A stretch of DNA of 64,000 bases from Tetraselmis striata (Eukaryota; Chlorophyta; Chlorodendrophyceae; Chlorodendrales; Chlorodendraceae): contig VCJN01003029.1 in NCBI GenBank assembly GCA_006384855.1, positions 124,001 through 188,000 on the forward strand, given 5' to 3'. Position numbers and translations under genes: made by a program. Under the pieces are notes generated by a model that worked only from the letters and a program-made list of their open reading frames with translations, was not told where the DNA came from and did no database searches. Shown piece by piece: positions 3,291 through 39,104 of the stretch (position 1 is the stretch's first letter; every line of letters begins with the position of its first letter).

Positions 3291-3299
3291 CACCCGAGG

Positions 3300-4330: not shown

Positions 4331-4389
4331 ACATCCACCCCAACTCTCAACCCCCCCCCCCCCCCCCCCCCGCGCGCGCGGCAGCAGGC

Positions 4390-6170
4390 ATGCCGGGAGA
4401 GGGATGGATGTCGAGTGTGTCGAAGAATGGCGTGTACACATGCAAGCACTGCCACGGCATCGTGACGGGCAGTAGTGAAAGGACGGCGCGAGAGCGGCAC
4501 TTCCGGAAATACCCGAACTGTAGCCACTCGTTGAAGCGTGCGGCTAAGTTGCACCGCAAGGCCGCCTTATCACAAGCAGCAGCAGGGCGGCAGCAGTAGC
4601 AGCAGCAGCGGCAGGGGCGGCAGCAGGAGGAGCTGCAGCCGTCGGAAACGGCCCGCCGGCGCCGGTCTCGGAGGACGATGTGATGGGTGTGGGGGAGGAC
4701 CCCGTTGGCGAAGACGGTGTGGACATCGACGCGCCTGCGTGGCCGCCGGCGGACGTGGAAGCTGCCGATGAGGGCGTGATACGGAAAGGCGATCCCGGTG
4801 ACTTCTACATGAAGGTCATCGCCAAGAAGTTCCGGGGAGTATGGCACTACGGCGTGATAACCGGCGTCGATACCGAGTGGGTGTTGGAGGACTACGGCGG
4901 GGCGACCCAGTGGCGCGCTGCTTTCGAGGACGGTGACATTGTGGACCTTCTGCGTTCAGAGGTGAGTGGGCCCGGCATGCGTGCGGGTGGCACCACTCAA
5001 CTGCGGTTGTATGGAATCACACGCACCCGCCCGGTCGGCGTGGCAGGTTGTGGAGGCTATGGCGGCTGCCCAGGAGCACCCCCATGTGGATGCGGACGGG
5101 GATGCTCGCTTGGTAACCGTCCATGAAGGCGATGACTTGTCCAGTGAATCACGCACCTTGCCCGGCGTGCGTTCAACACAACCCGGCTGGCGGAGGCCAA
5201 GCAGAACACTGGCTGCCATGGCGTGTGCCATGTGCATGTGGTCCTTGGCTATGTCAGCATGGTCAACCTCTTCCCCCTCGCGCCGTTCCACCTGTTTCTT
5301 TTTGGCTTGGGAAGGGACTTCTGGAGGAAATTTGTCACCGTGCAGGGCCACATTGGATTCCGAGCTATGAAGCAGGAAGACCGCCGCCAGGCTTTAGTCC
5401 CGATACCCAGCAACTTTGGACGCGGGTTGCGCCCTTCGATTGCGGTGTCCAAGAAGTCGAAAGGTAACCCCCCCCCCCCCCCCGGGCGTGGGCGTGGGCG
5501 TGGGCATGACGGCATTCCCCTCCATGACTGCAGGGTCAGGCAAGGTGACGGTGCAGTCCGGCTGGGTCATGGAGGACTGCTTGCACCACATGGAAACATT
5601 TTCCATTCTTAACGCCCGTCCGCTGTTCGAGGAGGCCCGGGTGAAGGCGATCATGACCGAGAAGGAGCTTCGCGTCCCCAGGCGGTGCTTGGGCACATGT
5701 ACAAGCGCATGCAAGGAGCTGCGTGGTTCGTCACGCGGTGGGGGTTGCAGAATGTGGTGACGGAGGAGGACGGCCCCGAGCGCAAGGCGCAGGTGGACGC
5801 GCTCACCAGGGAGGGGAGGACTCTAGACCCAGCGCGGCGCCAAGGCGCAGCGGCCGGGGCAGCGCGGCGCCAAGGCGCGGCGGCCGGGGCAGCGCGGCGC
5901 CAAGGCGCGGCGGCCGGGGCAGCGCGGCGCCAAGGCGCGGCGGCCGGGGCAGCGCGGCGCCAAGGCGCGGCGGCCGGGGCAGCGCGGCGCCAAGGCGCAG
6001 CGGCCTGGGGAGCGCGGCGCCAAGGCGCGGCGGCCGGGGCAGCGCGGCGCCAAGGCGCGGCGGCCGGGGCAGCGCGGCGCCAATGCGAGTGGGATGGGCG
6101 GGGCAGCGGTTGCTACCGAGTGAGGCGTAGCATCGATGGCAGAAGCAACGCAGCCTTTCCGGTTGCATAG
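4390..6170 (+). pseudogene. transposon protein: BED-type zinc finger plus Tudor-like domain, broken
   Basis: The protein starts at MPGEGWMSSVSKNG. A C-x2-C ... H-x6-C finger follows (CKHC, then RERHFRKYPNC), which resembles BED fingers of transposases. A one-base shift near 4570-4590, in a CAG run, leads into an Ala-rich acidic linker. Next comes a Tudor-like stretch at 4800-4961, containing FRGVWHYGVITGVDTEWV and then FEDGDIVDLL. That fits the small beta-barrel pattern of Tudor/Agenet readers (inference from pattern). Likely introns are 4962-5046 (phase 0) and 5464-5533; both join frames correctly. A second shift near 5670 precedes the 30-bp repeat that codes the tail. It is probably one of the proteins of the CACTA-like element. 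With its frame breaks this copy is unlikely to be functional. Confidence 0.5.
5829..6084 (+). repeat. 30-bp coding minisatellite
   Basis: About 8.5 near-perfect copies of a 30-bp unit containing GCGGCGCCAAGGCGCGGCGG. It is open in all forward frames; in the BED/Tudor gene frame it codes an ARRQGAAAGA repeat. The reverse strand is also open, producing a long spurious minus ORF. Confidence 0.9.
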
Positions 6171-6243
6171 TGTGACGCCGCCTGGATGTAACCCAGCAGT
6201 ACGCGCAAAGTGCAAGTGCAAGCTGATGATGGCGGGGATCCCG

Positions 6244-6278
<35 letters not shown>

Positions 6279-6630
6279 CGGCTGTGGGATAGGCGCGGCA
6301 GCGGTTGCTACCGAGTGAGGTGTCGCATCGTTTGCAGTAGCAACGCAGCCTTTCCGGTTGCATAGTGTGACGCCGCCTGGATGTAACCCAGCAGTACGCG
6401 CAAAGTGCAAGTGCAAGCTGCTGGTGGCGGGGATCCACGCGAGGTCGCATGACGGTGCGCGAGGGGGGGGGGGGGGAGGGGGGGGCAGCGGCTGTGGGAT
6501 AGGCGGGGCAGCGGTTGCTACCGAGTGAGGCGTCGCATCGTTTGCAGTAGCAACGCAGCCTTTCCGGTTGCATAGTGTGACACCGCCTGGATGTAACCCA
6601 GCAGTACGCGCAAAGTGCAAGTGTTACACG
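6090..6630. repeat. three ~190-bp tandem repeats with internal poly-G
   Basis: Three units each contain GGGGCAGCGGTTGCTACCGA and GTGACGCCGCCTGGATGTAA, separated by poly-G tracts of different length (about 6245-6275 and 6461-6485). Length variation is concentrated in the G-runs. Long minus-strand ORFs through them are repeat artefacts. Confidence 0.85.
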
Positions 6631-6665
6631 TCCGTGTGCCCCACCCAATGACATTGCGCCCGACC

Positions 6666-7012
6666 TCACTGACGGCATGTCTCGCTCTCCTTCATCTCCT
6701 GGGCCGTCCGCCGCCTCACCATGCGCACCCCACCAGCCGCGCGTGCCTTCTCGGAAGCCTCACACACGGCGGCGCGAGTCGCGTCGTGGAACGCGTCCCT
6801 GACATGGCGGAACTCCGCCCTCACCGTGGCCGTGGTCGGGCAGGGGACTGCCCGCTGATGGGTCGCCATGCATGGGTACTTGGGGGTTTTAGGGTCGCAC
6901 AAAGCCGGGGTGCCGTCGCAGCAACACTCCCAGTCCGTCCGTTGGCCGCAGTCCACGCACATGATAGTGCATGTGGCCGCCTCCCGCCACTGCTCGTAGT
7001 GCTCCGGTCAAC
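6666..7012 (-). CDS. Cys-rich exon, function unknown
   Basis: Open on the minus strand. It begins after a TGA at about 7012 and reads EHYEQWREAATCTIMCVDCG, then DWECCC and a Cys/Pro-rich part with TPKYPCMATHQRAVPCP, then a charged helix-like segment. The Cys pairs suggest a zinc-binding exon. No start codon is required if it is an internal exon. It lies inside the CACTA-like element, transcribed against the BED/Tudor gene. I do not recognise the family. Confidence 0.3.
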
Positions 7013-7029
7013 ATGGCGACGAGCAAGTC

Positions 7030-7900
7030 GGCATGTCCCGCAGGTGGCTGCGGGGCGGGTGGCGCGAGCGCAGCCTCGCTCGCCTCAACAACCCCCTCAG
7101 CCCGATCAGTCGCCTCGACCACGGCCTCCTCCGCCTCCTGACGCGGCGCACCATGCGCATCATCGTCGCCTGGCAGGGCGTCCCCCCCCCCGCAACGGCG
7201 CCGTCGGCGGTGGCCGACGCCGTCGTGGCGGGGTGTTGTGAGGAGGTGGCCCTAGACATAGGTGGGGCCGGCACCGCCATGTGTTGCTCCACATGCGGTG
7301 CGGTTCCTGACGCGACAGCTCCGTCGCACCAGTACCGGCGCCTGCACCCCACGCCTGCTGGGCTTACCACCAACCGGCATGTTTCCTTTGGGAGGCGGTT
7401 CATCCGCGTCGGAGGTGAGCGGCGGTGCCTGTGTGGGTGTCGATACTGCCCGGCCATTAGGGCTCCCGCCGCATGCCGCTCCGCCGACCCACGCCGCGGC
7501 GTGTGCTGCGCCCCGCATAGTCGCCTCGAATATATTATACATGACGCGGGGACGGGGGGGGGGGGGGGGGGGGGGATTCGTGCGTTTCGTATGTCGGCGG
7601 AACGGCGTGCGAAGCTGCGGCTGGCGAAGGTGGTGGAAGTAAGCGTGGCGGCGTCGGCGGCGTATTACCGTGCGTGCATGCGTGCGCAGCCCCGCGGCAG
7701 CAAGCCCCGGACTCGGCGTGTGCCGGCGGCAGAGCTGCGAAGCCATGGACACGGTACGGGATGCCAAGTCTGGCTAAGCAACTGCCGAGGCTGGCGGCTT
7801 AACCCCCATGTCCGGCGGTTGAGGGACGGAAAGTGCGTAGAAGTTGATCGGCAAAGCGGGCATATAAGCCTGGCTGTGCTAGGTTCCTATTAAGTAATGG
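7030..7900 (+). other. GC-rich region, no supported gene
   Basis: A 286-aa open frame (7033-7893) crosses a poly-G tract and has Arg/Ala-rich composition without a recognisable domain. Overlapping minus frames are equally long. I do not support a gene here. Confidence 0.35.
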
Positions 7901-8028
7901 CGGTTTGTGCTAAGTAATTCGTAGGGGTGGACCATTGCATGCAGCGCAGGTAGGGGGCGGTATAAATGAGGCCGGGCACATATACTGCTCCACGAAACGA
8001 CACTGTCGCACGTGTAGTTGAATAGGAC

Positions 8029-8172
8029 CCCCCCCCCCCCCCCCCCCCCCACCCCCGTCCGCCGGGTCGGCCCGCCGACCCGCCACGGCATGTAATATCT
8101 GTCATGCATCGCCGGGGTATGTGTGAGTGGATGCCCCGCCGCCACATCCCCCCCCCCCCCCCCCCCCCCCCC
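8029..8172. repeat. two poly-C tracts
   Basis: C-runs at about 8029-8050 and 8149-8172, flanking a short unique piece. They lie just before the 371-bp satellite. Confidence 0.9.
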
Positions 8173-8323
8173 ATTTGCACTTGTGCACTCATTAAGTTTG
8201 GGCTGGTTTCGGAGCAGTACATGTACGTATGTATACATACAATGGAACGTAGGACCTGCGCGGAAAGAGACGGGGCTGGCGGAGTGCGTTGGGGGTGCGT
8301 AGAGTAGCGTGCTGGTGAGATTC

Positions 8324-10535
8324 GGGGTGCATCGGACGCCGGATGCCCATCCACCCAGCGTAAAAGGCGCGTACGTAATATTCACACTATATTAACACAT
8401 AAATGTGTGAAAAGCGGACATTCCGTGCCGGATGGGTGGGAATACGGCGTCCGATGCAGCCAAAACCCCAGCAACACGCTATTCTATGCACCGCCAATGC
8501 ACTCCGCCAGCACCGCCTCAATCTCTGTCGATTTCGAAAACGCCTTCACATTATCCACCGCTAATAATTGCAATTGCCACCGTGTAATGTTGTCACGATG
8601 TGCGCACACAACAACACTTACTACCGGTTCCGACGCGGATGGAGGCGGGGCTGGCGGAGTGCACTCGCGGTGCACAGACTAGCGTGCTGCAAATAATTGG
8701 GGTGCATCGGACGCCGGATGCCCATCCACCCGGCGTAAAAGACGCGTAATATTCACACTATATTAACACACAAATGTGTGAAAACCGGATATTCCGTGCC
8801 GGATTGATGGGAATACGGCGTCCGATGCAGCCAAAACCCCAGCAACACGCTATTCTATACACCGCCAATGCACTCCGCCAGCACCGCCTCATTCTCTGTC
8901 GATTTCGAAAACGCCTTCACGTTATCCACCGCTAATTGCAATTGCCACCGTGTAATGTTGTCACGATGTGCGCACACAACAACACTTACTACCGGTTCCG
9001 ACGCGGATGGAGGGGGGGCTTGCGGAGTGCACTCGCGGTGCACAGACTAGCGTGCTGCAAATGATTGGGGTGCATCGGACGCCGGCTGCCCATCCACCCG
9101 GCGTAAAAGACGCGTAATATTCACACTATATTAACACACAAATGTGTGAAAACCGGATATTCCGTGCCGGATTGATGGGAATACGGCGTCCGATGCAGCC
9201 AAAACCCCAGCAACACGCTATTCTATGCACCGCCAATGCACTCCGCCAGCACCGCCTCATTCTCTGTCGATTTCGAAAACGCCTTCACATTATCCACCGC
9301 TAATTGCAATTGCCACCGTGTAATGTTGTCACGATGTGCGCACACAACAACACTTACTACCGGTTCCGACGCGGATGGAGGCGGGGCTTGCGGAGTAGTG
9401 CATTGGCGGTGCGTAGACTAGCGTGCTGCAAATACTTGGGGTGCATCGGACGCCGGATGCCCATCCACCCGGCGTAAAAGACGCGTAATATTCACACTAT
9501 ATTAACACACAAATGTGTGAAAACCGGATATTCCGTGCCGGATTGATGGGAATACGGCGTCCGATGCAGCCAAAACCCCAGCAACACGCTATTCTATACA
9601 CCGCCAATGCACTCCGCCAGCACCGCCTCATTCTCTGTCGATTTCGAAAACGCCTTCACATTATCCACCGCTAATAATTGCAATTGCCACCGTGTAATGT
9701 TGTCACGATGTGCGCACACAACAACACTTACTACCGGTTCCGACGCGGATGGAGGGGGGGCTTGCGGAGTGCACTCGCGGTGCACAGACTAGCGTGCTGC
9801 AAATAATTGGGGTGCATCGGACGCCGGATGCCCATCCACCCGGCGTAAAAGACGCGTAATATTCACACTATATTAACACACAAATGTGTGAAAACCGGAT
9901 ATTCCGTGCCGGATTGATGGGAATACGGCGTCCGATGCAGCCAAAACCCCAGCAACACGCTATTCTATGCACCGCCAATGCACTCCGCCAGCACCGCCTC
10001 ATTCTCTGTCGATTTCGAAAACGCCTTCACATTATCCACCGCTAATTGCAATTGCCACCGTGTAATGTTGTCACGATGTGCGCACACAACAACACTTACT
10101 ACCGGTTCCGACGCGGATGGAGGCGGGGCTTGCGGAGTAGTGCATTGGCGGTGCGTAGACTAGCGTGCTATAAATACTTGGGGTGCATCGGACGCCGGAT
10201 GCCCATCCACCCGGCGTAAAAGACGCGTAATATTCACACTATATTAACACACAAATGTGTGAAAACCGGATATTCCGTGCCGGATTGATGGGAATACGGC
10301 GTCCGATGCAGCCAAAACCCCAGCAACACGCTATTCTATGCACCGCCAATGCACTCCGCCAGCACCGCCTCATTCTCTGTCGATTTCGAAAACGCCTTCA
10401 CATTATCCACCGCTAATAATTGCAATTGCCACCGTGTAATGTTGTCACGATGTGCGCACACAACAACACTTACTACCGGTTCCGACGCGGATGGAGGCGG
10501 GGCTTGCGGAGTGCATTGGCGGTGCACAGACTAGC
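8324..10535. repeat. 371-bp satellite, about six tandem copies
   Basis: Copies start at the word GGGGTGCATCGGACGCC at 8324, 8699, 9067, 9438, 9809 and 10180. The spacings are 375, 368, then 371 three times, and the last copy is cut at about 10535. Each unit holds two imperfect palindromes. One pairs GTGCATCGGACGCCG with CGGCGTCCGATGC. The longer one has arms of about 45 bp around CACCGCCAATGCACTCCGCC. A small TTCACAC/GTGTGAA hairpin sits inside the first. Copies 3-4 and 5-6 look like a higher-order pair, differing in the AATAATTG/AATTG and GCACTCGCGG/GTGCATTGGCGG variants. Short ORFs of about 61-63 aa on both strands are by-products. Confidence 0.95.
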
Positions 10536-10599
10536 GGGAGACTAGATCCATTGTCGCTTATTTACAAGCACGGGCGGTGCTGCCAGACCTGATCGTCTA

Positions 10600-12969: not shown

Positions 12970-13057
12970 AAGATGCTGAGCATTGCCCGCTGCTACTCCG
13001 GTACGACTTCCGGTACAGTTCGTGCGGCGCTTCTGTGTTATAGTCATGCTCGGCGGA

Positions 13058-14003
13058 TGCCGCAGCATTTGCCATATCCGCGTGCGCATGAAGAACGGGA
13101 CAGCCAAGCCCTTCCGGGTCGGCTAGGGTTACAGCTAGGGTTCCATACCCGGTTGAGACCACAGGCAGGGCACCTGATTGGTTAGGGTTTCATACCCTGG
13201 CCATAGCCCTGAGCGAGGCGCAAGGAGACATACATACCGGAGATCAGAGACCCGCCCAAGCACACCTCGGCGGGACTTCTAAGGGGACAGTACCTCTAAT
13301 CGGGACCTCTAACAAGGACCCCTAAGGTAGACTACCTGCAGAAGACGAAGTACTGTACTGCTGCTGGTACAAGGCGCAAGACTCACTGTAGCCGCGGCTG
13401 AGTAGTAGTATAGGACTTGATGAGTACAATTAGACAAGGGCATTGCGTAATGCGTCTGGCGCGCGGTGCGCGCACGGCGCGCGTGCTATTAGCACTTAGC
13501 GTGACGTGCGGCCGCCTTGCCATGGCTGCGATCGCGTGCTTATAGAGGGCCTCCGCCTTCCGGCAGTCCCTCTTCCCCCTTGTCCTGCCTGTGTGTGCCT
13601 GTGTTTGCCTATGACAGGCATAGGCAAGACCATGTGTACGGGACGGAGACGGTGTAAGAGACGGAGATCGGCTAGAGGAACGAGGGCCAAAGGTAATCAC
13701 GGTAGCTTGCGTCCTTGTCGTACGGTCGCACGCGTGCTGCTCCCTGCATCGTGCGCGCGTGCTGCTGCTGGTGCTAGGTTGTCACCATTCGACCCGGTAC
13801 CGACGTAAAGTACGGTAGGAACGGTTGATAGCCGCGACCATCACTGCATAAAGTACTGCACGGCGTGGCCGTGACCTGTGGTGAGAGGCTTCATTGCCAC
13901 TGGCATTCACCCCCCTGAGTACGGGCAAGACCAGCAACGCTGGTCTGAACTAAAGCCCTATAGGCGTCTGAGAGGTGCATGTAGTGACTTAGGTTCGCGT
14001 TCA
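13058..14003 (+). repeat. LTR 1
   Basis: 946 bp, begins TGCCGCAGCATTT and ends GCGTTCA, i.e. TG...CA. Nearly identical to 16349-17298; the main differences are a 6-bp insertion (TCAGAT) and a 2-bp gap plus scattered substitutions. The similarity implies recent insertion or conversion. Confidence 0.92.
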
Positions 14004-14097
14004 AACAAGGGGGAAGAGGGACTGCCAGAAGGCGGAGGCCCGGAGGGAAAAGGACGGCACGCACCGCGAGGTACCGCCACCCAGTGAGCGAGACACC

Positions 14098-15180
14098 GTG
14101 ATTATGGATGTGCATGTCAAGATGGGCCATTTGGGGCGGGATTGGCTGCGCAGTGTTATCGCCGCTTCATATTTCTGGCCAGGGATGGTGGAGGATGTAG
14201 CCCGAGTCAAGAAGGCGTGTCCGGACTGCGATCGGCTGCAACATCGACCCGGCGGCACCAGCGGTCGCCCAAAGGCAGCCTCACCGTTGGACATGCAGCC
14301 GCTGCCGCATTTCGGCATGTTCTACCGCTGGCACTTGGACTTGGCGGGGCCTTTTGAGGCCACCCGCAGTCGCAACGTCTGGATGTTGGTGATGGTGGAA
14401 GCGGCGAGCAAGTGGGTGGAGTTGGTGCCGCTGCGCACCAAGGAGGCAGCCAACATGCGACAAGCCTTTCAAGAGAGAGTGCTGGCGCGTTTCGCGGCGC
14501 CCGGCGAGGTGTGTACCGACGGCGGTACCGAGTTCAGCGGCGAGTTCCAAGAGCTTCTCGTACATGACATCGATCATCCGAAGCCGCTGCACTATCATCC
14601 GCAGCCCAATGGGTTGGCGGAAGGGATGGTGAAAACAGTCAAGGAGGCACTGATGCGCTATGTGGCTCAGCCCAGCAAGCGCGTCGTGTGGGACACTTTT
14701 CTGCCTTCCATCGAGCTGGGCTACCGTTGCAGCAAGCAAGCCAGCACCATAGGTACAGCCCATACGAGTTGGTGTACAGCAGGGCGCCCGTGTTTCCCGC
14801 GCAGACGAGAGCGCTCTTTGAGGAGAGCGCCGTGGACTTCAACAGCCCGGAGGGCATGTGGGAGCTGATGACAATGCGCGCGGAGCGTTTGGCGCTCATG
14901 GTGCCGACGGCGATGCACAACGTGGAGGCGGCGCAGCATCGTGAAGTGATGCGCTATCGCAGGAGGCGCGCGGGGTTGGTGGCGCCCGGAGTGCAGCGCT
15001 TCAGCCCCGGCGACTTCGTCTACGTGCAACAGCGGCAGCAAGGCGCGCTCGATCCACGAGTGCGACCGGCTGTCTACAAGGTTTACGAGGTGAACGACAA
15101 CGGAGTGGTGGTCATCCAAGGAGCTGACGGCGACACGGCGCGCGTGCGCGTTGAGGAGCTGGCGCGGTGCGCCGTTCCAT
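14098..15180 (+). pseudogene. Ty3/gypsy integrase (element A)
   Basis: In order: an HHCC zinc-binding domain (VHVKMGHLG ... CPDC), then the catalytic core. The core has a first Asp in WHLDLAGPF, a second Asp in CTDGGTEF, and a Glu in QPNGLAEGMVK about 33 residues later. The typical YSPYELVYSR motif and a C-terminal SH3-like segment (FSPGDFVYVQ) follow. A one-base shift near 14745-14755 splits the core from YSPYELVY. The first frame ends at 14868; the second runs on from about 14750. Its role would be to insert cDNA into chromatin. The same N-terminal zinc domain occurs at 24270-24430 in element B. Confidence 0.85.
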
Positions 15181-16219
15181 ACGTGGTGTTGCCGGCAGGA
15201 TTTGAAGACCCAAATATGGCGTGCGAGGAGTGCGACGGGCGCGTCAGCACCCAGCGCAGCCCGATCATCATCTGCGAAGACTGTGAACGAGGCTGGCACA
15301 AGTTGTGTCATCAGCCACCTGTGGCACGTGTGCCGCGGGGAGCATGGCGGTGTGCGGAGTGCAGCGCTGATGACGCAGCGTTGCCGGCCCTGTGGACATC
15401 GGTGGCTTTAGCCGCCACAACAATCAGTGACAACGACGACAGCGACGAGGAGATTCAAGACCCTGCCCCGCCTTTGCAGCCGACAAGAGCGGCGGTGGCA
15501 GCAAGACTGAACTGGGGCATGCCTGGCACCTGGCACTCAGCAACTGTGACAAGAACGATGAACAACCTTCGAGCAATCAATGACTATCTACCGGCGATCA
15601 GTAACCAAGTGAGCGAGTACGCTGCGCTAGCCAACGTGATGAGCTGGCGCGGCCGAGTAGTCTTCGATCCGTCGGCGGGACATGGCAGCACCGCTGAGGC
15701 CTTGCGGCCGTGCGGCGCGACAGTGATCAACAACAACTTCAATCCGATGTACCAAACTGAGATGTGCGAGGACGCGCTGGAGTCCTTTGTGTACCAGTGC
15801 GCTCGCGATGTAACGGCGACCGTGGCGACGACGACGATGGCGACGATGACGATGACGACACAGCCGCGGATAGATGCCCCTTTCGTAGTGGTGACCTCCC
15901 CGTGGTTCCAACTACTTGATCTGGCGCTGCCAATCATGGCGTCTTGCGCGGACATCCTTTCGTGCAAGTACCGATCTTCTACATCGCGCAGGTACCTTCC
16001 CCGCGCATGCAGTGGCTACGGCATCTAGGCGACTGTGGGCGGCTCCACATTATTGCCGGCGACATGCAGCGTTCCCGCACTACGCACCGATCAACTCTGT
16101 GGCTAGCGGTCTTCCGCGACAACGAGCTGCGAGAGCGAGAACTGCGAGCTGAGTGGCGTCACTCCGTGGCGTCAATTCACTTCCACACCGAGGCGTGCGC
16201 TGGCGACCAGCGTCACTGA
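15181..16219 (+). pseudogene. PHD finger plus methyltransferase-like domain, C-terminal to integrase
   Basis: Continues the integrase frame. A canonical C4HC3 PHD finger lies at 15222-15362: CEEC, 13 residues, CEDC, x4-H-x2-C (GWHKLC), 14 residues, CAEC. After an acidic linker comes a Rossmann-type methyltransferase pattern. VVFDPSAGHGST (about 15657-15692) corresponds to the SAM-binding motif I. VVTSPWF (about 15886-15906) sits where amino-methyltransferases carry their [D/N/S]PP[Y/F/W] catalytic motif. A -1 shift near 15960 moves the rest (VPIFYIAQVPSP onward) to another frame, ending at 16219. PHD fingers read histone H3 tails, so this may target integration as chromodomains do in chromoviruses. 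Whether the methyltransferase acts on DNA adenine is inference. Confidence 0.65.
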
Positions 16220-16261
16220 GCGTCAATTGGCGCCCAGCGGCCGCTCACCCTTCTGGCGACC

Positions 16262-16348
16262 GACCGGGTGGGGGGGGGGGGGGGGGATGGGCCGCCCATT
16301 GAGCTGGTGGCAGCGCCCCACGCGAGAATGCGAGCATGCGACGGCAGC
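16262..16348 (+). other. pre-LTR segment with poly-G
   Basis: A poly-G tract of about 18 (about 16268-16287) is followed by a 60-bp unique piece that abuts LTR 2. The piece (CCGCCCATTGAGCTGGTGGC onward) is repeated at about 24452-24506 at the 3' end of element B. The G-run is a candidate polypurine tract but sits about 60 bp from the LTR, which is unusual. Confidence 0.5.
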
Positions 16349-17298
16349 TGCCGCAGCATTTTCCATATCCGCGTGCGCATGAAGAACGGGACAGCCAAGC
16401 CCTTCCGGGTCGGCTAGGGTTACAGCTAGGGTTCCATACCCGGTTGAGACCACAGGCAGGGCACCTGATTGGTTAGGGTTTCATACCCTGGCCATAGCCC
16501 TGAGCGAGGCGCAAGGAGACATACATACCGGAGATCAGAGACCCGCCCAAGCACACCTCGGCGGGACTTCTAAGGGGACTCAGATAGTACCTCTAATCGG
16601 GACCTCTAACAAGGACCCCTAAGGTAGACTACCTGCAGAAGACGAAGTACTGTACTGCTGCTGGTACAAGGCGCAAGACTCACTGTAGCCGCGGCCGAGT
16701 AGTAGTATAGGACTTGATGAGTACCATTAGACAAGGGCAGTGCGTAATGCGCCTGGCGCGCGGTGCGCGCACGGCGCGCGTGCTATTAGCACTTAGCGTG
16801 ACGTGCGGCCGCCTTGCCATGGCCGCGATCGCGTGCTTATAGAGGGCCTCCGCCTTCTGGCAGTCCCTCTTCCCCCTTGTCCTGCCTGTGTGTGCCTGTG
16901 TTTGCCTATGACAGGCATAGGCAAGACCATGTGTACGGGACGGAGACGGTGTAAGAGACGGAGATCGGCTTGCGGAACGAGGGCCAAAGGTAATCACGGT
17001 AGCTTGCGTCCTTGTCGTACGGTCGCACGCGTGCTGCTCCCTGCATCGTGCGCGCGTGCTGCTGCTGGTGCTAGGTTGTCACCATTCGACCCGGTACCGA
17101 CGTAGTACGGTAGGAACGGTTGATAGCCGCGACCAGCACTGCATAAAGTACTGCACGGCGTGGCCGTGACCTGTGGTGAGAGGCTTCATTGCCACTGGCA
17201 TTCACCCCCCTGAGTACGGGCAAGACCAGCAACGCCGGTCTGAACTTAAGCCCTATAGGCGTCTGAGAGGTGCCTGTAGTGACTTAGGTTCGCGTTCA
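16349..17298 (+). repeat. LTR 2, shared by elements A and B
   Basis: 950 bp, TG...CA. It is the 3' LTR of element A and the 5' LTR of element B, as in tandem arrays formed by LTR-LTR recombination. I could not match the sequence just after it (GAAGAGCTCTCG) to a known tRNA primer-binding site. Confidence 0.92.
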
Positions 17299-18182
17299 GA
17301 AGAGCTCTCGTGGGTGAGAGTGAGTGCTAGAGGTGAGGAAAGGTCTAAGGGGTGTTGGAGACAAACCTATACGGGAACTGCTCGTAAGAGTACATAAGAC
17401 TCGAGGGGTGAGGGGACAAAACCCACTAGAGGGTGGGCCAAGAAGGCCCTCGGACTAGTGAGGTGACGAGGTGTGGAGTGATTCGAGTTTCCTTTTGGGT
17501 ATGGTGACGAGCGAGAGGCAAAAGGTTTGCCACCTCTGGGGACACTTTGTGTTTGTGCCTGAGCGAGCCGTGAACAACGGGGCATTGAGTGGGCGAAGGG
17601 CACTAACGCCAAGCTAAGTGTGTTGCTGAGTGGCTCTTTCACCCGGCGCGGCCTCTGAGTGAGAGCCACGGCGTGCCGACGCTCTTTCACCATCCCGCGG
17701 GAGGTGAGAGAGCGGCGTGTTCCTTTGGGTACCAATTGGCCTGCTCCGGTTCTTTTGGCATGCTCCGGTTCTTTTGGCCTGCTCCAGTTCAACGACATGC
17801 TCCAGTTCAACGGTTCAACGACGACAGGTGGTAGGAAGGAGGCAGGGCGTGAGCCCGGGAGTGGGAGGGCGCCGGCTTCACAGTCGTGTGTCAGTGCCGG
17901 AGTGCACTTGGAGGGAGCGGCGTCGCCGCCTGAGGGCCCCGGCGAGGGTGACGGCTGGCGGGTGCCTGGCTCAGCTTGGTGCCAACCTCTTCGTGGCGGT
18001 GGTGTGGATCTGAGGTTCATCGGCACTGAGTTATACCGGAGGTTGGAACTGTTCGTGTATCGGCTTCAGACGGGTGTGCGCCAACACCGGCGAGGCGACG
18101 CGGCAGCGGCCCTCAGATTTCTGAGGCCGCGTGGACGCAGCCCCACTTCTGAGCTTGAGGGCCCCGGCGTGGGCGACAGCCA
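17299..18182 (+). other. element B leader
   Basis: Between the LTR and gag. It is repetitive in TGAGTG and contains three close copies of a TGCTCCGGTTCTTTTGG-like motif at about 17740-17800. No credible ORF on the plus strand. Confidence 0.5.
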
Positions 18183-20182
18183 GTGGACGCGCTGGAAAGC
18201 GCAGAGGGCGGCTTTGCCCTGGGCGACCTGTGGGCAGCACTGGACGAGCTGGAGGAAGACTTGTTGATCGAGGAGGTCGTGGAGGGGCTGCTGAACGACG
18301 TAGACGCATCCAACCAGGAGGGTGAGGAGTGCGATAACGAGAACGCGTACGCATACAGCAGCAGCGAAGCAGAGGACAGCGGAGACGACGAGGACGAGCT
18401 CTACTTTTCCCCGCTGCCAACACGCAACCCTAGGCGAGACACTTTGTACGGACACGCGTACTTTGTGGACGACGCAACGAGCGACGACGAGATGGAGCCG
18501 CGGAGGGGCAAGGGCTCCAGCGGGAGGTTGTGGGCGGGTCACGAGAAGGCGACCTCAGAGCACACGTTTGAGACGTGGAAGAACTCTACGGACTGTGCCA
18601 TGCAGAAGGAGCAACAACATGCATTTGACCGCAACAGACCGTTCAACGAGATCCACGAGGTTCACGTGCTGCGGAGCCGCATTCAGCCAAAGTACTCGGA
18701 GTCCCTAGAGACAACACTCATCAGCCGGGGCATCAAGTACGAGGACTCGAGGATCGTACGGAGGCTGGAAGGCGCAGAACGGCTCGACTACTACCGCCGG
18801 TTGTTGGACGGCATGTGGGAGGAGCTCGTCAACATCACCAAGCAGATCGAGCTGCATTCGGAGCGGTACAACAAGTGCCATCGCTCGCCTGGTGAGACTG
18901 TGCGCGATTTCCGCAATCTGTTGCTAACGCACACCAGGGTCAAGAACCTGGTCACCGAGGAGACGACACGCATTGTGGAGATATCGCGCGTCAACGTGGA
19001 GTTCATCGAGCGGGCATGGGGCAAGACGCGTTTCAGCCCACGCATCAACTTCGCACAACAACAACTCGTGGACTACACGATGGACACCCAGGTGGACAGG
19101 ACCTGGGAGATGGCTGAGTGGCTCAACAAGCAGGAGCGCGGCAGCATTCACATGCGCGCTCATTTGCGCGTCCAGAGCGGAGGCGGCAGGCCGGGTTTTG
19201 ACTACGAGGAGCACAACAACCGCGGTGGCGGTCGCGGCAGCGACAGCCGTGGTTGTGGAGGCAGCCACGGAGAGGGTGGCAACTACCATCGACGTGGAGG
19301 TGGAGGAGGTGATCGTAGAGGCGGGCGCACGGAGAGGAGCGCTTACACCCGTGATGGAGATGATGGTGGGCGACAGACGGCCACGAACCCAAGCACCCGC
19401 CGCTCAACGGCTATGCTCAAGTCGTCGGCAGCGAGGAGGGCGAGGTGGTGGGGCTGGCAGCAGCCAGCCAGTTGCGCCCACAACGTAAGAGCACGGAGGC
19501 TCAACGCCATGGCGTCAACACGGTGCGCATGGAGGACGGGGAGTGTGAGGCCAGGCAGCGGAGGCTGCCTCGCGGCTTCACCACCCCATCGATGGAGATG
19601 GCGCAGCAAATGCACAGCCGTACAGAGCTGACGGCGAAGCTCACCAGCGCAGCACAGAGCGTCACGGCGCCACTGATGGAGATCGCCAAGCGGCTGGTCA
19701 AGCACGAGCCCGTGGAGGATGGCTGGGAAAAGCATGCTGTCATGCGTGCTCTGGAGAGCAAGCGAGTCTCCATCAGCTTGATGGAGGCTTACCTGCTCGA
19801 GCGCAGCGGCGGCGGGATGATGGAGAGCATCTTGGCAACAGCATGGGGCGGCGGTGCCCTGAGTACCGAGCCGATCAGCAGCCACGCTCACTCAGCCAGG
19901 ACCTCGAGCGGGGAGCGCGCCTTCGAGGCAGCGCTGATGATGGTGGAGGAGGTCGCTGACCAACAAAGCGGCGGCAAGTCTACCGTGGCGGAGAAGACCG
20001 CTTGCGGAGAGGCTGAGACTGAACGGTCTTTTGCCATTTACCGGCCAGGTCAACTCGCGAGACAACGCGAGGAGGAGGAAGATCGCAAGCGTGCAAATGC
20101 GCAGCGCAATGCCAGCACGGCGGTTGAGGAGGCATCAGTATGTCGCCGCAGCGGCAAGTGGCAACCCGCCACTGACTATTGA
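18183..20182 (+). pseudogene. gag-like protein of element B, frameshifted
   Basis: An acidic N-terminus starts at MDALESAEGGFALGD. A helical capsid-like region follows (about 18540-19150, with LDYYRRLLDGMWEELV and HRSPGETVRDFRNLLL, resembling the retrotransposon gag fold). A Gly/Arg-rich RGG-type nucleic-acid-binding tail lies at about 19180-19350. The frame then changes between about 19370 and 19440 and continues as HEPKHPPLNGYAQVVGS through a long helical, charged part to the stop at 20182. No CCHC knuckle is seen; the RGG tail may replace it. The second part might be a separate ORF joined by programmed frameshifting, but a simple indel is more likely. Confidence 0.65.
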
Positions 20183-20291
20183 CGCAGTGCTACTGAAGCA
20201 TACATGAGGGAGCAAGCACTACGGCTGCCCAAAGGGTCTGAGACCCGACGCTGCCTGGAGCAGCAGGCGGAAGTCGCCAACAAGGGCATTA

Positions 20292-20870
20292 TTGCCCTTC
20301 AGCCCACAGGGGGATGAGGCGAAGGAGCAGCCGGAGACGGCTCGGCTTGACACCATCACGTGCGAGTTGCACGCCAACAACACCATGTTGCAGTGCGAGA
20401 CCATTTCCGACGGCGGCAGCAGCCACACCCGCATGAACGCGTCAGCGATGGAACCAAGCGCGGCGGAGGCCGTGGTGAAGGGCGCTGGCGGGTGGGTAGA
20501 CGTCGACATGGTGGTGGTGCTCGCCAATGGCAAGGGCTCATGCGAGCAGCAACGACGATTGCGGGATGGCATGGTCTTCACGCTTCGGGACCCCGTCACC
20601 TCAATCATGGCAGCCCATCACGCACCGCGCGTGTACGAGAATGGAGGCGAGGCACCGGGCTTGCTGCTCGGTGGACCTATCTACCATCACAGCCCTCGGG
20701 CTGCGCCCGGACCCGGCGACCAGAATCTGCACTTTCCGCGCACCCAACCGACCAGCCGGCAGAGTGCCGCTGCTCAGTCAAACGGCGTGGGAGCGGCGGG
20801 TCCGCGAGCACCAACCTGTGGTGCGCGTGGAGAGAGCGAGCTACTGCCATGGGGTGGAGCTCGGCGATGA
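20292..20870 (+). pseudogene. probable retropepsin-like protease region
   Basis: The frame has ETISDGGSSHTRMNASAM, where aspartic proteases of Ty3/gypsy elements carry D-[ST]-G-[AS]. About 40 residues later comes VVVLANGKGSC, matching the usual hydrophobic-x-ANG signature, and then LLLGGPIYHH, where ILG is expected. A frame change after that motif leads to the frame open to 21039. The catalytic triad would read DGG here, so the enzyme may be inactive. Assignment rests on spacing and order only. Confidence 0.45.
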
Positions 20871-20876
20871 TGCGAT

Positions 20877-20902
<26 letters not shown>
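20877..20902. repeat. poly-G tract inside element B
   Basis: About 25 G. It lies between the protease-like and methyltransferase ORFs and disrupts any continuous frame. Confidence 0.95.
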
Positions 20903-20907
<5 letters not shown>

Positions 20908-20909
20908 AC

Positions 20910-22109
20910 GTGTCTCACAGCCACGCCGCCCACGAACCCTCACGGCGTGACGTGCAAGAGTCCAAGACCTGCGAGCCGGCAGACCTACCGCCTTTACGGG
21001 ATGTGCAGAGCCTGCAGCGTCACGGGTTGGCGAGGCTGAGCACCCGCGAAGAGGGCATCAGCATGTACGAGCCATGTGGCGGAGGCTACGTTGCCGTGCT
21101 GAATGCCATGCTGGCCAACGGTCAGAAGGTGGCCAGATACCGGCATTCGGACATCGACCCGGCAGCCCGCAAGGCCGCTGGGCAGTGTGTTCAAGGAGCT
21201 CAGTAGGAGATATCCGGATCTACTACCAGCTAGCGCGATCAAGGGGTGGGACTCGTTCCCACAGGACATCACGGCGATCACAGCGGAGGACGTGAGGCGC
21301 CTGCCATACATAGACATACTGGGGTGTGGATGGCCCTGCCCAGGCATGAGCAAAGCCAGCCGCAACGCGCTGGGATTGCGCGACCGGAGGTCACGTTTGC
21401 TCTTTCACGTGGCCGCGTTCATCGAGAAGCTCGAGGAGAAGCAGCCCATCGGCGTGGGGTGGCTGCTTGAGAACGTGGATACGAGCGGAGACGAGAGACT
21501 ATACATCAAGGAGTCTGAGAAATACATCACGAAAATCATCGGGAGAGCGCTCGTGATTGATGAGGCGGGCTGTGGAGCGAATCATCACCGAGTGCGACGA
21601 TTATGGACGAACATGGGGGACGTGGAGAGACTGAAGTTGGCGTGGGAGAGGCGGGAGGACATGCAGCCGCGACTGCTGTGAGAGGTGCTGCCACCGCACC
21701 TACGACCGCATGTCAATCTGCCGACACCACCCAACGGAGTTCGCGTCAACAAACAGCAGGGCAGCCACGCGCGTTGCCAACGATCTTGGCACGACCGGAC
21801 TCAGATGCCTACTCCGGCGAGGGCGCCGGCATGTTGTTCAACATCAACACGGGCGAGTGGGAACGGCCCACTGTCCACCTGAAGGAGGAGCTTTTCGGTT
21901 ACGAGCCGAACGTCATTCACGGCATATCGCTGCCGGACCATGAGCGCCTCACAGGCAATGCCATGGGTCTGCACAGCGTCGCGTGGATCGTCGGGCAGCT
22001 CTTCGTGGAGCAGCAGCGACTGAGGGACCTGGAGGAGCTGGAGCGCGCACCCCGGGCTGCCCAGACAGCTCAGCGCGCGGAACGAGAGAGACGAGATCAG
22101 AGATCCTGA
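20910..22109 (+). pseudogene. DNMT-type cytosine-C5 DNA methyltransferase inside a retrotransposon
   Basis: Conserved C5-methyltransferase motifs appear in the right order. Motif I: ISMYEPCGGGYVAVL with SDIDPAARKAA after it. Motif IV: GCGWPCPGMSKA; catalytic Cys codon 21337-21339. Motif VI: WLLENVD (about 21460-21480). Motif VIII: NHHRVRRLWTN (about 21580-21612). Motif X: LTGNAMGLHSVAWIVG (about 21950-22000). The enzyme would methylate cytosine in DNA using SAM. HRVRRLWTN resembles the DNMT3-like group. Two frame changes (near 21180 and between about 21610 and 21790) break the gene in this copy. It lies between protease and RT, in the same direction as pol, so it belongs to the element and not to the host. 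Confidence 0.85.
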
Positions 22110-22328
22110 GGGAGAGCATGGAAGCAGCTGTGTCAACAGGCGCTATGCTGCTGACTGCTGATCATTTGGTTGGGCGGCACGTCAATGCACTTCAGCGAGG
22201 CGAGTCGTCTCGGCAACACCACGGTGTTAGCCATGTTCGTGGCAGTGATGGTGCGTGCGAGCGCGCGCTACCGCCGCGAGGTGACGGCGACAAGCAGGGC
22301 GGGGCGCTGAGCTTTCGGCGCCAACGCC

Positions 22329-24566
22329 GTGACGGACGGCGGCGGGACTGCGGAACGGAGTAGCGCTGCTGCGTGGGCCAATCGTGGCTACACGCAGGCA
22401 AGCATGAATGATCACGTGGAGGATGTTCGCAGCCTGAAGGATCCTGAGAAACACTGGCGGTGCGGGCGCGAGTGCGAGGCTTCACAGCAACGACAGCTTG
22501 TGGAGCTCTGCGACAGCTTTTGGGATGACGTGTGGGTATGGTCCGTTAGCGACCTACCGGCCGTCAACCACTGGGAGTTCAGGATACCGACGACCAACAC
22601 GCAGCCCATCAAGCGACCCAAGTACCGATTGAGCAAGACTGAGTGGGACTTCGTGGACAGCTGGTGCAAGGAGCTGTTGGCAGCTGGGGCGATCCGCGAG
22701 AGCCAATCTCCCTACAGCATCCCAGTAGTGTGTCCACCGAAGAAGGACGACGACGGCAGCTGCACCGGGATCCGGGTGTGTTTGGACGCTCGCCCGTTGA
22801 ACAGTGTCACTGAGTCGTGGGCGTATTGTATGCCCAAGACGGACGAGCTTCTCAGCAAGGTCGCATGCGCGCGCATGTACAACGGGTTTGACGCCAAGTC
22901 GGCGTTTCATCAGCTGCCCATCGCAAAGGAGGACAGACACGAGACATCCTTTTGGGGCAGCGACCGGCAGTATGAGTGGTGCCGGATGGCGATGGGCTTC
23001 AAGAACGCCAGTCAAGCATGGCAGTGTGTCATGGATGAGGCCCTTGGCGATCTGCCGTTCGTGGCGATTTACGCCGATGACATATGTGTCTTTTCAGGCG
23101 CAGCCGAGATGAGCGACGCTGAGGTGTTTCAGCAGCACCTTCAGCATTTGGAGACGGTGTTTCAGAGGCTAGCAAAGGCGGGCATCAAACTGGCGCCCGG
23201 CAAGGGGCGCATGGCCGTGAGGCAGATTGCTTTCTTGGGCCATTGGGTCGACGGCGAAGGCGTATTTCCGCAGCACTCCAAGGTGGAGGCTGTGGTGAAG
23301 ATGCCGCCGCCAACTGACGTTGGGGGGCTTCGGCGCTTCCTCGGCATGGTGGGCTACTGCGGCAAGTTCATCGAGCAAGTTGCAGTCAAGCGCAAGCCGC
23401 TGACCAAGCTCACCGGCAAGGTGCCGTGGGAGTGGGGATCGGAGCAGCAACGAGCCTTCGAGCAGATCAAGGCAGACCTGGTTTCAGCTCCCGTGCTGAG
23501 AAATTCGGATTGAAGCCGCCCTTTCATCCTGCACACCAATTTTAGCGGAGCTGGATTGGGCGCGGTGCTGGCGCAAGAGGACGACGAAGGACAGGAGTAC
23601 GTGGTGGAGTTTGCAAGCCGCACCTGCCAAGGCGCGGAGCCAACCTATGCCAGCTATGAGGGTGAGTGTCTTGCCATGTTGTATGGCATGGACAAGTTCA
23701 GATACTATCTGTTTGGCAGGCAGTTTGTGGTGGTGACAGAGCATCGGCCTTTGGAATGGCTGATGAACACCGCTCAGCTTCGTGGGAAGTTGGCGCGGTG
23801 GGCGATGAGGCTCAGCGAGTACGACTTCGTGGTTCGCTATCGGAAGGGCGTTCACCACGTCAACGCAGATTGTCTGAGTCGGGGGCCCGTGGAGGGCGAC
23901 CCAACGGAGCTGGATGGGCGCGGTGAGTTTTCACCGGAGAGCACCGTGCGACATGCGGCAGCCTTTTGGTGCGCAACGGCTCAGAGCAGCCGGCAGCCAG
24001 AGCTGTCAGCATGGGCGCGACGCCGCGTGCTGGACACCGCCCATGAGGGCACGGCCGACGGCGACTTGGTGGCGGTTACCGGCGAGCTCACGGCGGGACC
24101 GCGGAGAGGCGATCCGTGGATGGACGCGGAGGCGAAGGCGGAGCTGCAGGCGGGCAACGTCAACATGCCGCAACCTTATGCCCGCTATACATGGAGAAAC
24201 AACATCTTGTGGTATTTACACAAGGGCGGCACGCACCGCGAGGTACCGCAACCCAGTGAGCGAGACACCGTGATTATGGATGTGCATGTCAAGATGGGCC
24301 ATTTGGGGCGGGATCGGCTGCGCAGTGTTATCGCCGCTTCATATTTCTGGCCAGGGATGGTGGAGGATGTAGCCCGAGTCAAGAAGGCGTGTCCGGACTG
24401 CGATCGGCTGCAACATCGACCCGGCGGCACCAGCAAACCCGCACGCACCGGCCGCCCATTGAGCTGGTGGCAGCGCCCCACGCGGGAATGCGAGCATGCG
24501 ACGGCACGGACATATGTGCTGTCCAATTTGGACAGATTTGAGTTACACCGGAAGGGCGATTTGTAA
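22329..24566 (+). pseudogene. Ty3/gypsy RT - RNase H - integrase N-terminus (element B)
   Basis: One frame, interrupted only by a TGA at 23511-23513. RT: KRPKYRLSKTEWDFVD, RVCLDARPLN, FDAKSAFHQLPI, and the catalytic FVAIYADDICVF (YADD codons 23070-23081). RNase H follows: FILHTNFSGAGLGAVLAQED, where the usual HTD is HTN; YEGECLAMLYG with the Glu; and VVVTEHRPLEWL, where TDH is more usual. The linker and the HHCC domain of integrase (VHVKMGHLG ... CPDC) follow. At 24436 the frame runs into pre-LTR sequence and ends at 24566. A single nonsense change (a Trp or similar codon to TGA) separates RT and RNase H. Confidence 0.9.
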
Positions 24567-26744: not shown

Positions 26745-29700
26745 ATGGATCAGGTGTTTCGCTCTGCCGCGGGTGCTACCGAGAACGGGCGGCGGTCGAC
26801 GCTGGCCTATGATGGCCATGGCAGGGTGTTCACCGTCGGGGAGGATGGCCTATTGCGCAGCGCGAATGTTAGAAGCGACTTCCTTGTGGGGGCTGCGGCA
26901 AGACCACGCGCTCCATCAAAGTCAGGTGGGGGGTTCGGTTCATCTGGGGTGCGTCAGCTTAGCGTGGGCATGTCGTGTTCTCACCCGTTTTCAGGGAAGA
27001 CAGCCTCTCACAGTAAACGCTGATGCTTTTGCCACCAGGTACTGGTCTCCCGCTGCGAGTTTTGAAGCCCTCACCCCCACTGGGTTTGATCCCTCTGCAG
27101 GTACGAGCTACCATGTGTCTTGTTTGCCCATGTACGTCTTCCTGACTGTGTGTAGACGCAATGCTAATGGTAGCTCGTCTGCTGTGGTCACCGGTTCCAG
27201 ATGAGCTTCAGCCGGGGTGGACAGTTCGCTGTCATCACCGGCCGAAAATGGATCAATGTTGAACTTTCGGGGATTGCAGTGATTGACGTGATAGAGACAT
27301 CCACCACCGCTGGATCCGTGGATGAGGTTGGCAGGCTGCTGGTATTGGGAGCAGAGCTCTTTGATTCGAGGCCGGGGCTTCAAATATTACAGGTGCGCTG
27401 CCCGTCCACCTCCCCCCCCCCCCCCCCCCCCCCCCAACATGAAGCCACAACATCATTATAGATATTTTGTGAGCTATCTTGATGCCGCAGCATGAGCTTG
27501 TTGCACTGTTCTGGCGCCCTCCATCTCTCCCTGCTGCTCACTGCTATGATTCTCATAATCATCCGTTGGTGTAGGTTGCCTGGCATCCCAGCAGCGACCA
27601 TCACGTTGGCGTGCTCACCAGCGACAACATCTGGCGGATTTTCAGCTTGCACGAACCATCGTATCCCGAGCAGACATTTGAGCTGGGTGGCCTACAACAA
27701 GTAACACGGGAGCGAGTTTTGGGCATGTCCACCATGAAGGGAGAGAAGGCTGTGACATTTGCGTTCGGGCCGCCAGTGGACAGCTGGGAGAGATTCACAG
27801 TGTTCTTCATGACGCTCAGCGGTGAGGTTGGCACCTTGCGTTTGGTTACTAGCTAGTCTCGTGAGCGCAGCGCATGCAATTCTGATCCCCGACCCTCTGC
27901 CTGTTGTGCGCCATGATCGGAACCGGGCACAGGCAGTATATACATCCTCTGCCCCGTGGCGCCATTTGGGTGCAGATTCCACCTTGCTGCAGGCGCGCAG
28001 CCATTTCCAGCGGGCCGGCATGAGCTGCATACAGATATACAAACGAGCGAGGCTTGGCTGGAGCAAGCACTGGGAGTGCAGGAATCGCTGACACATGGGC
28101 ATGACTATGTCGAGATTAAACCCCACGCATTGGAGGATCATTGCCCTGCTCTCCAGGTGCGCTGCCCTATGCATGTCCTGCCCCATGCATGTCCCTACAT
28201 TTGCGTATGAAGGCATTGGTGAGCCTCAGACAGCAGAGGAGGTGCGACGCCATCGACCTCCTTGTGCATTTCATACCCTCAATGAGGGCATGCAGCCAAT
28301 GCAGCTCTGTGGAACTCCGCACCCTCTGTAACGCCCCTCTGGCGTGGTTACATGCAAATGTATTGCCTCCGACCCCTTCCCCCTCCCCCCCTCCCCCTTC
28401 ATACGTGACATGGACTGACTGTTGTCTGCGTCGACGGTTGGTGCATCGATGTTGCCGGCAGGGCCCGCTTGCGCTGCATCTGCAAAGCAGCTCTCCACCG
28501 CAGGCGACGGCAGGCAACATGCAATCTCTAGCAGTTCTTCATTGGGAAGCCACTGTGCAGCTTCGCAACCCGCAGGGGGCTGACACTGCAGGTGGTTCAC
28601 CCCCTTCGTTTTGTGTTGCGGTCGTAACTGCTGGGCTCAGCGGAAAGATCAGTGTTGCCTTGATGGAGGGCAACATTGTACCAGCATGGAAGAAGGCTGA
28701 TTCAACGATATGGCACGACGCATACGGGAGTGTAATTGCCGCACGAATAGTGGTACATTACCCAACTGTCTCCGTGTCCCCCAAGCAGCATGTTGCCTGA
28801 TGAGCTTGTCTGCTTCAGGCACCTCACAGCTGCCCCTCAAAACGTTTTATCCCTTGTCAGGCACAGTCAGCTACGTCGTCGGAAGCCACTCCAACGCTGT
28901 CGCTGTTCGACGAAATCCATATAAATGTAAGTCCCAGGGGGTATGTGGCATGTCAATCCTGAGCTCGTTGCGTTGTCGCAGTGTTCTTATTGAGAATTAT
29001 GATTCGGTTTCCAGGTCTGCGATCGCGCTGGCGTGCCAGGGCCAGATAGCGACAGTGAGGATGACGACCATGATGCTGCCGCTCTGTTGGATGTGGTGCG
29101 CACACTCGCACTCTGCTTGGTGGCTGTGCTACTGGACCTGTTGGAATATCCGGAAACAGCAAGAATTCAGGTAGTTGATGGTACTGCAACTGTACATGTC
29201 CGACAGGTGAGGGACCCGGTGTCCAGCGACCGATGCTATATCATTCATGGGCATGGCGCCATCGGGATCTCGCTTCCATGGCTCCCTGTGCTTGGTGGAT
29301 TTTTGGCACATGCTGCCAACGACAATCAAGTTGCCCCTCCTAGCCTGCCGTCTACAATTGCGCTGGATCTCGCTGGTGAATGGGGGAAGGATGGAATCAT
29401 AGGTGCACGCACTGAAGTATTACCACCTCTGCTGGTTCCATGGAACCGGGTTGAATGTGATGTGCAGCACTTTCTATCCAGCATCGAGATACTAAGCTAC
29501 AGTCCGGTGTGCTAGGTGGCTGCCTGATTGGAAATGCCGCCACCGGCAGTCTGCTTGCACTGGTCAAGGCCACTGGCACAGGCCAACTGCTGTCAACGCA
29601 CGAACTCTATGAACAGGTGCGCACCCCGGATTGCGCCAGTGCCTTGTTTGCGCAAATATGCAGTCAAGGCGGCATGCCATGACAAATTCTGACACATGGG

Positions 29701-38970: not shown

Positions 38971-39104
38971 TGGTGGCAGGGGGGCAAGCATGGCGATTTG
39001 CTGTTCATGCGAGGCGGTCATTATGCGATGCGAGTGCGCGGCTGTCCGCGCTTGGTTCAGCGGTGAGCGGCGGTGACCGTCAGGCGACCCCGTACTTCAT
39101 GAGC

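Follow-up and report, generated by a model that had tools for sequence, protein, structure and literature searches.

A DNMT3-like methyltransferase domain split between the overlapping Gag and Pol frames of a young Ty3/gypsy family in the green alga Tetraselmis striata

We analyzed a window of 64,000 nucleotides from Tetraselmis striata (contig VCJN01003029.1, positions 124,001 to 188,000; G000:C2442:124001-188000 in our numbering), in an assembly of 224,097,584 bases and 2903 contigs. T. striata is a green alga (chlorophyte) in the class Chlorodendrophyceae and belongs to neither the dinoflagellates nor the streptophytes. The region at 20.9-22.1 kb of the window appears to encode a DNMT3-like cytosine-C5 methyltransferase (MT) within a Ty3/gypsy retrotransposon. 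The window copy is a dead, rearranged member of a young family. We consider it quite probable that the Gag-Pol protein of this family carries the MT as a standing, selected domain, which would be read across two frames by a +1 frameshift and would methylate the element's cDNA.

An earlier first-pass annotation, made from the sequence alone, had listed C5-methyltransferase motifs in this region, and all five are present in the order given: I (EPCGGGY...SDID, in the Gag frame), IV (GWPCPGMS), VI (LLENV), VIII (HHRVRR), and X (TGNAMG). As in C5 methyltransferases, the catalytic Pro-Cys of motif IV is followed by ENV of motif VI and then by motifs VIII and X. When the three frames were compared to Pfam, as that annotation had suggested, the middle frame (21103-21681) passed the PF00145 cut-off by itself (E = 9.7e-7, 29 bits versus a cut-off of 22), but the other two pieces gave no DNMT match. 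For the motif I piece, the sole Pfam row was AviRa, below its cut-off (E = 0.0032, 17.4 versus 25.7 bits); the corresponding stretch of an intact copy (L013) matches AviRa with E = 0.0012. The motif X piece had no relevant Pfam match. PF00145 scores L013 itself at 21.8 to 24.7 bits (cut-off 22).

Both a profile search against PDB and a fold search with Foldseek ranked DNMT3A first and placed DNMT3 ahead of DNMT2, although the window piece alone ranked HhaI (E = 0.035) before DNMT3A (E = 0.053). Fold alignments to the catalytic domains of DNMT3A and DNMT3B have 16-20% identity. We call the MT DNMT3-like: this reflects PDB profile and fold rankings, by which it seems closest to the DNMT3 class, and not a phylogeny with the host's DNMT3, DNMT5, and DNMT6. 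The catalytic Cys, the EN of motif VI, and the Arg of motif VIII are retained across the aligned families.

Searching the genome with the middle MT piece gave at least 151 matches (150 of 349 candidates were scored, so the totals are lower bounds). Besides the window, at least 46 matches are near full length at 90-97% identity. Intact copies do exist: 11 of these 46 lie in an open frame of exactly 1771 amino acids (Pol), and 4 more lie in frames of 1753-1799 amino acids. The proteins matched by the MT piece were five, all of them jgi/Tetstr1 models. We extracted the surroundings of six other copies and located the window's parts in them. The intact element consists of a repeat (X, about 957 bp), a gag open reading frame (ORF), a pol ORF with the MT, reverse transcriptase (RT), RNase H, H2C2, and rve, a PHD finger, and 3' repeats. 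In L013, the gag ORF encodes 1129 amino acids and has a zinc knuckle above the Pfam cut-off, and Pfam finds RVT_1, RT_RNaseH, H2C2, and rve in pol in the Ty3/gypsy order. The PHD finger was scored in the displaced pol end of the window copy and in a related protein, P0023 (described below); in the intact copies it is visible in translations only, cut by the ends of the stretches taken.

By its position, the MT is a standing part of this young family. A search with the RT gave at least 106 matches (104 of 1519 candidates scored). Of these, 58 (counting the one in the window) extend to the 5' end of the RT query, starting at residue 13 or earlier; they were compared to 68 of the 151 listed MT matches, namely those from the window element's family. 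An MT match lies within 3 kb upstream in 53 of the 58, and in 30 cases it lies at exactly 643 bp. Five RT matches have no adjacent MT (C1151, C2415, C2014, C121, and C1002). We read the first three in search of a copy that lacks the MT and has clean edges around the missing domain, and found none: C1151 is truncated within the MT, C2415 begins immediately downstream of it, and C2014 is interrupted within it, and an MT match lies 8.3 kb upstream, the pattern expected from an insertion. Of 20 other copies, 19 have motifs IV and X within a single open frame, which the window copy does not. Together with the Pfam, PDB, and fold results, this constant place bears out the original idea of an alga's Ty3/gypsy element that carries a DNMT3-like MT.

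The family is young. The paired X repeats within single elements are 99.6, 98.8, 99.6, and 100% identical in four copies, which points to recent insertion. Also, 12 of the 19 fetched copies differ from one copy (L034) by just 0.11-0.47% over 3.6 kb, so the family moved recently.

For a test of selection, we aligned 21 copies to one intact copy and counted each distinct single-base codon change once. The pol-frame MT has 37 synonymous and 39 non-synonymous changes (ratio 0.33, p = 3e-6), along with 3 stops. RT-RNase H has 40 and 53 (ratio 0.37, p = 5e-6), and the linker between the MT and RT-RNase H has 15 and 19 (ratio 0.38, p = 0.005). These counts indicate that Pol is under purifying selection throughout, the MT as much as the RT. 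Gag has 27 synonymous and 45 non-synonymous changes (ratio 0.57, p = 0.02). The motif I stretch, with 7 and 8 (ratio 0.39, p = 0.07), is not significant alone. The Gag/Pol overlap has 2 synonymous and 4 non-synonymous changes in the gag frame, or 3 and 1 in the pol frame.

The gag and pol frames of the intact copies share a 101-nt overlap, and the MT is divided between them: the gag frame encodes motif I (..LYEPCGGGYVAVL..SDIDPAARKAAGQRV), and the pol frame, at +1, encodes motifs IV-X. This +1 relation holds in all 24 distinct copies (27 rows, window included), and the overlap is 101 nt in 23 of them (164 nt in L041). The Pol frame has an ATG directly after the upstream stop. The window copy had been described as decayed by two frame changes. 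Because the first change is common to all 24 copies, it is a feature of the family and not decay; only the later shift and the stops are decay. The single-frame relatives (a long interspersed nuclear element, or LINE, L023; a copia element, L027; and others) can be aligned by eye, without gaps, along both halves. Laying them along the halves would put the shift point between ..QRV and KELS, which is our own reading and not a computed result. P0023, a Pol protein of 1732 amino acids from the source 'lgn', is 69% identical; it keeps the catalytic Cys, the EN, and the motif VIII Arg, and it too begins after motif I. This suggests that the frame split is older than T. striata. We infer that the MT straddles a Gag-Pol frameshift.

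The ends of the element depart from the Ty3/gypsy pattern in one respect: intact copies have DIRS-like split repeats. Among the five copies with both ends read, four have the order X - coding - Y - X - Y (Y being some 60 nt long), with 4-bp target site duplications (TSDs) outside the left X and the right Y (GTGT, GGTG, GTAG, and GGAG). C1431, the remaining copy, has the order X - coding - Y and the TSD TGTT. (Another copy, C1687, is without its left end.) So the same long terminal repeat (LTR) does not stand directly at both ends: the left end is X only, and the right end is Y-X-Y, or Y alone in C1431. The termini are TGCCG...CGGCA, and a 4-bp TSD is present in all five copies and in the window. 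We considered a DIRS element, but these have a tyrosine recombinase and no TSD, and the rve integrase in pol and the TSDs rule this out. In three 5'-truncated copies (L082, L083, and L011), an inverted 60-nt Y is found at the break or no more than about 25 bases from it, which would fit a joining of the truncated end to the opposite end of the same element.

The window copy (Table 1) is a single insertion at 13058-24506 with the TSD CGGA. It is internally rearranged and is not a simple LTR element. Its order is X - integrase/PHD end - Y - X - gag to H2C2 - Y, and 213 bp of the H2C2 region are present in both halves (14050-14262 and 24222-24434, 98.6% identical). It looks like a dimer or tandem minus complementary parts. 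The supposed intact LTR at 16.3-17.3 kb turns out to be an internal repeat of the rearranged insertion. The MT does lie upstream of the RT on the same strand, as had been proposed: RT, RNase H, and H2C2 follow in order by Pfam, with the integrase displaced. On the other hand, the supposed protease-like ORF has no Pfam protease match in the pieces scanned. The decay consists of a premature stop that ends the pol-frame piece and a later frame shift; further damage includes a 26-base G run at the end of gag (20877-20902) and about 300 bp missing within gag. Pfam finds the zinc knuckle in L013's gag but not in the window's gag pieces.

Table 1. Parts of the rearranged Ty3/gypsy insertion, in window coordinates.
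Feature	Position	Strand	Evidence or remark
TSD CGGA, left copy, 4 bp	13054..13057	.	right partner at 24507-24510
Terminal repeat X, copy 1, begins TGCCG	13058..14003	+	13051-14003 versus 16342-17298: 97.6% identical
H2C2 zinc domain and rve core of the pol integrase, moved upstream in the rearranged copy	14050..14868	+	frame 13993-14868: PF17921 E = 9.8e-13, PF00665 E = 3.2e-8
3' end of pol, with the integrase C-terminus, a PHD finger, and possibly a second methyltransferase-like domain	14568..16028	+	PHD E = 6.1e-7; methyltransferase-like domain weakly supported
Short repeat Y, internal copy, ends CGGCA	16290..16346	+	98% identical to 24450-24506; order as in intact copies
Repeat X, copy 2 (the LTR of the first-pass annotation)	16349..17298	+	repeat comparison; order in intact copies
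Gag region, several broken frames, about 300 bp short compared to intact copies	17299..20876	+	gag of six other copies is 93.7-97.3% identical at the DNA level
MT part 1, motif I, Gag frame including the Gag stop	20904..21206	+	weak match to another methyltransferase family
MT part 2, motifs IV, VI, and VIII, Pol frame (+1), premature stop at end	21103..21681	+	PF00145
MT part 3, motif X, in a third frame through decay of the window copy	21564..22109	+	comparison with L013
Reverse transcriptase and start of RNase H	22311..23513	+	RVT_1 E = 2.2e-21
RNase H and H2C2 integrase zinc domain; element breaks off	23514..24434	+	RT_RNaseH E = 3.5e-32, H2C2 E = 9.2e-14
Repeat Y, terminal copy (right end of the insertion)	24450..24506	+	repeat comparison
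TSD CGGA, right copy, 4 bp	24507..24510	.	pairs with 13054..13057

The window has other repeats as well. The segment at 27483-28512 starts with TGCCGCAGCATG and ends with GGCGACGGCA, which are the termini of the element family, and its length is about that of X plus Y; inside, it has no clear DNA similarity to the element, and it has no matching TSD. Direct repeats of 1.77 kb at 37823-39570 and 48763-50526 are 95.5% identical and have different flanks; they are a possible LTR pair of another element. Pfam had no match in four neighboring ORFs between these repeats nor in one across the edge. There are two tandem arrays: 6.1 copies of a 371-bp unit (95%) at 8259-10536, and 55 copies of a degenerate 56-bp unit (73%), with a strong C bias on the + strand, at 57869-60888.

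Related MTs are found in other retroelements of this genome. At least 51 genome matches have 27-35% identity to the middle MT piece, and we read nine. Eight are Ty1/copia elements with PF00145 upstream of the integrase and RT (L025, L027, and L076-L081); six score above the Pfam cut-off, and L079 and L080 score 19.7-19.9 bits. The ninth is the LINE L023 (G000:C2687:14601-24600, 3-8594), a single frame of which encodes endonuclease, RT, a PCIF1-like domain (PF12237, E = 9.5e-15; this family comprises cap adenosine methyltransferases), DNMT, and RNase H. L023 thus has two methyltransferase-type domains in one retroelement protein. A second Ty3/gypsy family (L084), whose RT is 38% identical and whose frames reach 2970 amino acids, has MT motifs upstream of the RT (16.1 bits, below the cut-off).

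Self-methylation that might help the element persist, as mentioned in the first-pass annotation, would have left little trace in its base composition. The ratio of observed to expected CpG is 0.97 in the element and 0.955 in the rest of the window (excluding the two tandem arrays), so there is no strong mutational footprint of self-methylation; by this ratio, the window element's family has no CpG depletion. The ratio is 0.82-0.90 in two copia elements and 0.81 in the LINE. Across 20 copies, differences from L034 of the C-to-T type (unpolarized) are found at 92 of 13,158 CpG positions and at 176 of 31,499 others; in some copies, such differences, again unpolarized, are 2- to 3-fold in excess at CpG.

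We propose that the Gag ORF ends with the half of the MT that has the S-adenosylmethionine-binding motif I, and that the Pol ORF begins with the catalytic half. The likeliest mechanism is +1 ribosomal frameshifting within the 101-nt overlap, around the codons for ..QRV / KELS, which would yield one Gag-Pol chain with a whole MT beside the RT. Synthesis of the MT would then always be coupled to that of Pol, the two would be packaged together, and the MT would methylate new cDNA before or at integration, in the particle or in the nucleus. The frameshift, the packaging, and the methylation of cDNA are the steps that our proposal would add to the observations above.

We also considered substrates for the MT other than the element's own cDNA: the RNA of the element, or host DNA, where methylation would silence rival elements or the host itself. 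C5 methylases of the same fold include RNA enzymes (DNMT2 was among the weaker matches in the PDB profile search), and several orders of retroelements in this one genome have the domain. However, both the profile and fold searches place DNMT3 before DNMT2, and a position next to the RT suits cDNA as the target. We think that RNA or host DNA is a rather unlikely target.

Another explanation for the conserved split is that the MT has two chains. Naturally split bacterial C5 methylases exist, such as M.AquI. Pol might initiate on its own, at the ATG at the start of its frame, and the two halves, motif I from Gag and the catalytic part from Pol, might meet as separate chains inside the particle. 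The halves do lie in two overlapping ORFs in every one of the 24 copies. But internal initiation about 3 kb into an mRNA would be unusual, and the homology to the single-frame relatives runs across the frame change without a gap, in our reading, as it would for one chain. We judge two chains to be unlikely.

A third idea is that a frame error in an ancestor destroyed the MT and was fixed in the family, so that the MT is a decaying passenger, carried because Pol lies downstream. The split itself would fit, as would the modest PF00145 score of intact L013, the lack of CpG depletion, and the lack of significant constraint on the motif I stretch; also, the ratio is the same in the linker. Nevertheless, non-synonymous changes are as rare in the MT as in the RT, and the catalytic Cys, the motif VI EN, and the motif VIII Arg are kept across the aligned families and also in P0023, at 69% identity. 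A decaying passenger is quite doubtful. Finally, although the window copy is broken and only one piece of it scores as a DNMT by itself, chance motif matches or a host gene between unrelated fragments are refuted by the same arrangement, with fixed spacing, in dozens of copies inside repeats with TSDs, and we give them virtually no credence.

Why would mobile elements carry enzymes of the very mark that silences them? In T. striata, this question can be addressed with intact copies that are recent, nearly identical, and equipped with a selected MT, along with related domains in the Ty3/gypsy, Ty1/copia, and LINE elements of one genome; if these are indeed DNMT3-like, then they would imply recurrent capture of the domain or its exchange between retroelement orders. 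An MT that spans the junction of the Gag and Pol frames would be expected to act only in company with Pol, which is testable. A broader scheme, which we offer tentatively and judge slightly less likely than not, is that the frameshift is an assembly switch for an epigenetic enzyme, with the S-adenosylmethionine half in Gag and completion beside the RT; that a PHD reader and a second (adenine-type) methyltransferase-like domain lie at the other end of Pol; and that DNMT3-like domains are recurrently captured or exchanged between retroelement orders.

The principle has been known since 2018, when DNMTs were described in retrotransposons of dinoflagellates and Klebsormidium (de Mendoza et al., PMC5890265). 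What is new here is an MT read across two overlapping Gag/Pol frames. The SymbioDIRS-Dnmt3 enzymes carried out de novo CG methylation in yeast; the KnitGypsy enzyme gave no methylation in that assay, which the authors call inconclusive, as human DNMT3B gave none either (PMC5890265). A 2025 survey reports DNMT3 in LTR Copia and DIRS elements, and its main text does not name Tetraselmis (PMC12344493). DNMT5a and DNMT6 have been reported in Tetraselmis (PMC9998398). In the open-licence literature that we searched, we found no report of a retrotransposon methyltransferase from Tetraselmis, which does not establish its absence from print.

Compared to the catalytic domains of DNMT3A and DNMT3B, which are its best PDB profile and fold matches with the motif VIII region (AHR..FW.N) inside the aligned stretch, the T. 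striata MT is embedded in Gag-Pol, and no PWWP or ADD domain was found. Related proteins have the domain at other positions in Pol. P0018 (EukProt) has RT, RNase H, H2C2, and rve as well, but its MT lies between RNase H and the integrase; in P0017 (ENA), the order is MT-H2C2-rve-PHD. Both score below the cut-off for PF00145.

Among the elements in PMC5890265, SymbioLINE-Dnmt resembles the LINE L023 in having a DNMT; this is another kind of element than the window's, and its DNMT is mostly in an upstream ORF, whereas L023 has DNMT, RT, and the PCIF1-like domain in one frame. SymbioDIRS-Dnmt3 shares with the window's family a DNMT3-like domain in Pol and the repeat order, but the T. striata element has a DDE integrase (rve) and 4-bp TSDs instead of a tyrosine recombinase. 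KnitGypsy-Dnmt3 from Klebsormidium nitens, like the T. striata element, has Gypsy-type domains, a Dnmt3-class MT in Pol, and purifying selection on this domain. The repeat order A-coding-B-A-B, reported for DIRS and, with Gypsy domains, for KnitGypsy-Dnmt3, corresponds to X-coding-Y-X-Y in four of our five copies. This comparison is by description and not by sequence. In T. striata, unlike in KnitGypsy-Dnmt3, the MT is split over the Gag and Pol frames (motif I in the Gag frame, motifs IV-X in Pol), and Pol has a PHD finger and a possible C-terminal methyltransferase-like domain; the words 'PHD' and 'frameshift' are absent from the main text of PMC5890265. The hosts differ too, a charophyte versus a chlorophyte, so the Gypsy-DNMT3 kind of element extends from a streptophyte alga to a chlorophyte.
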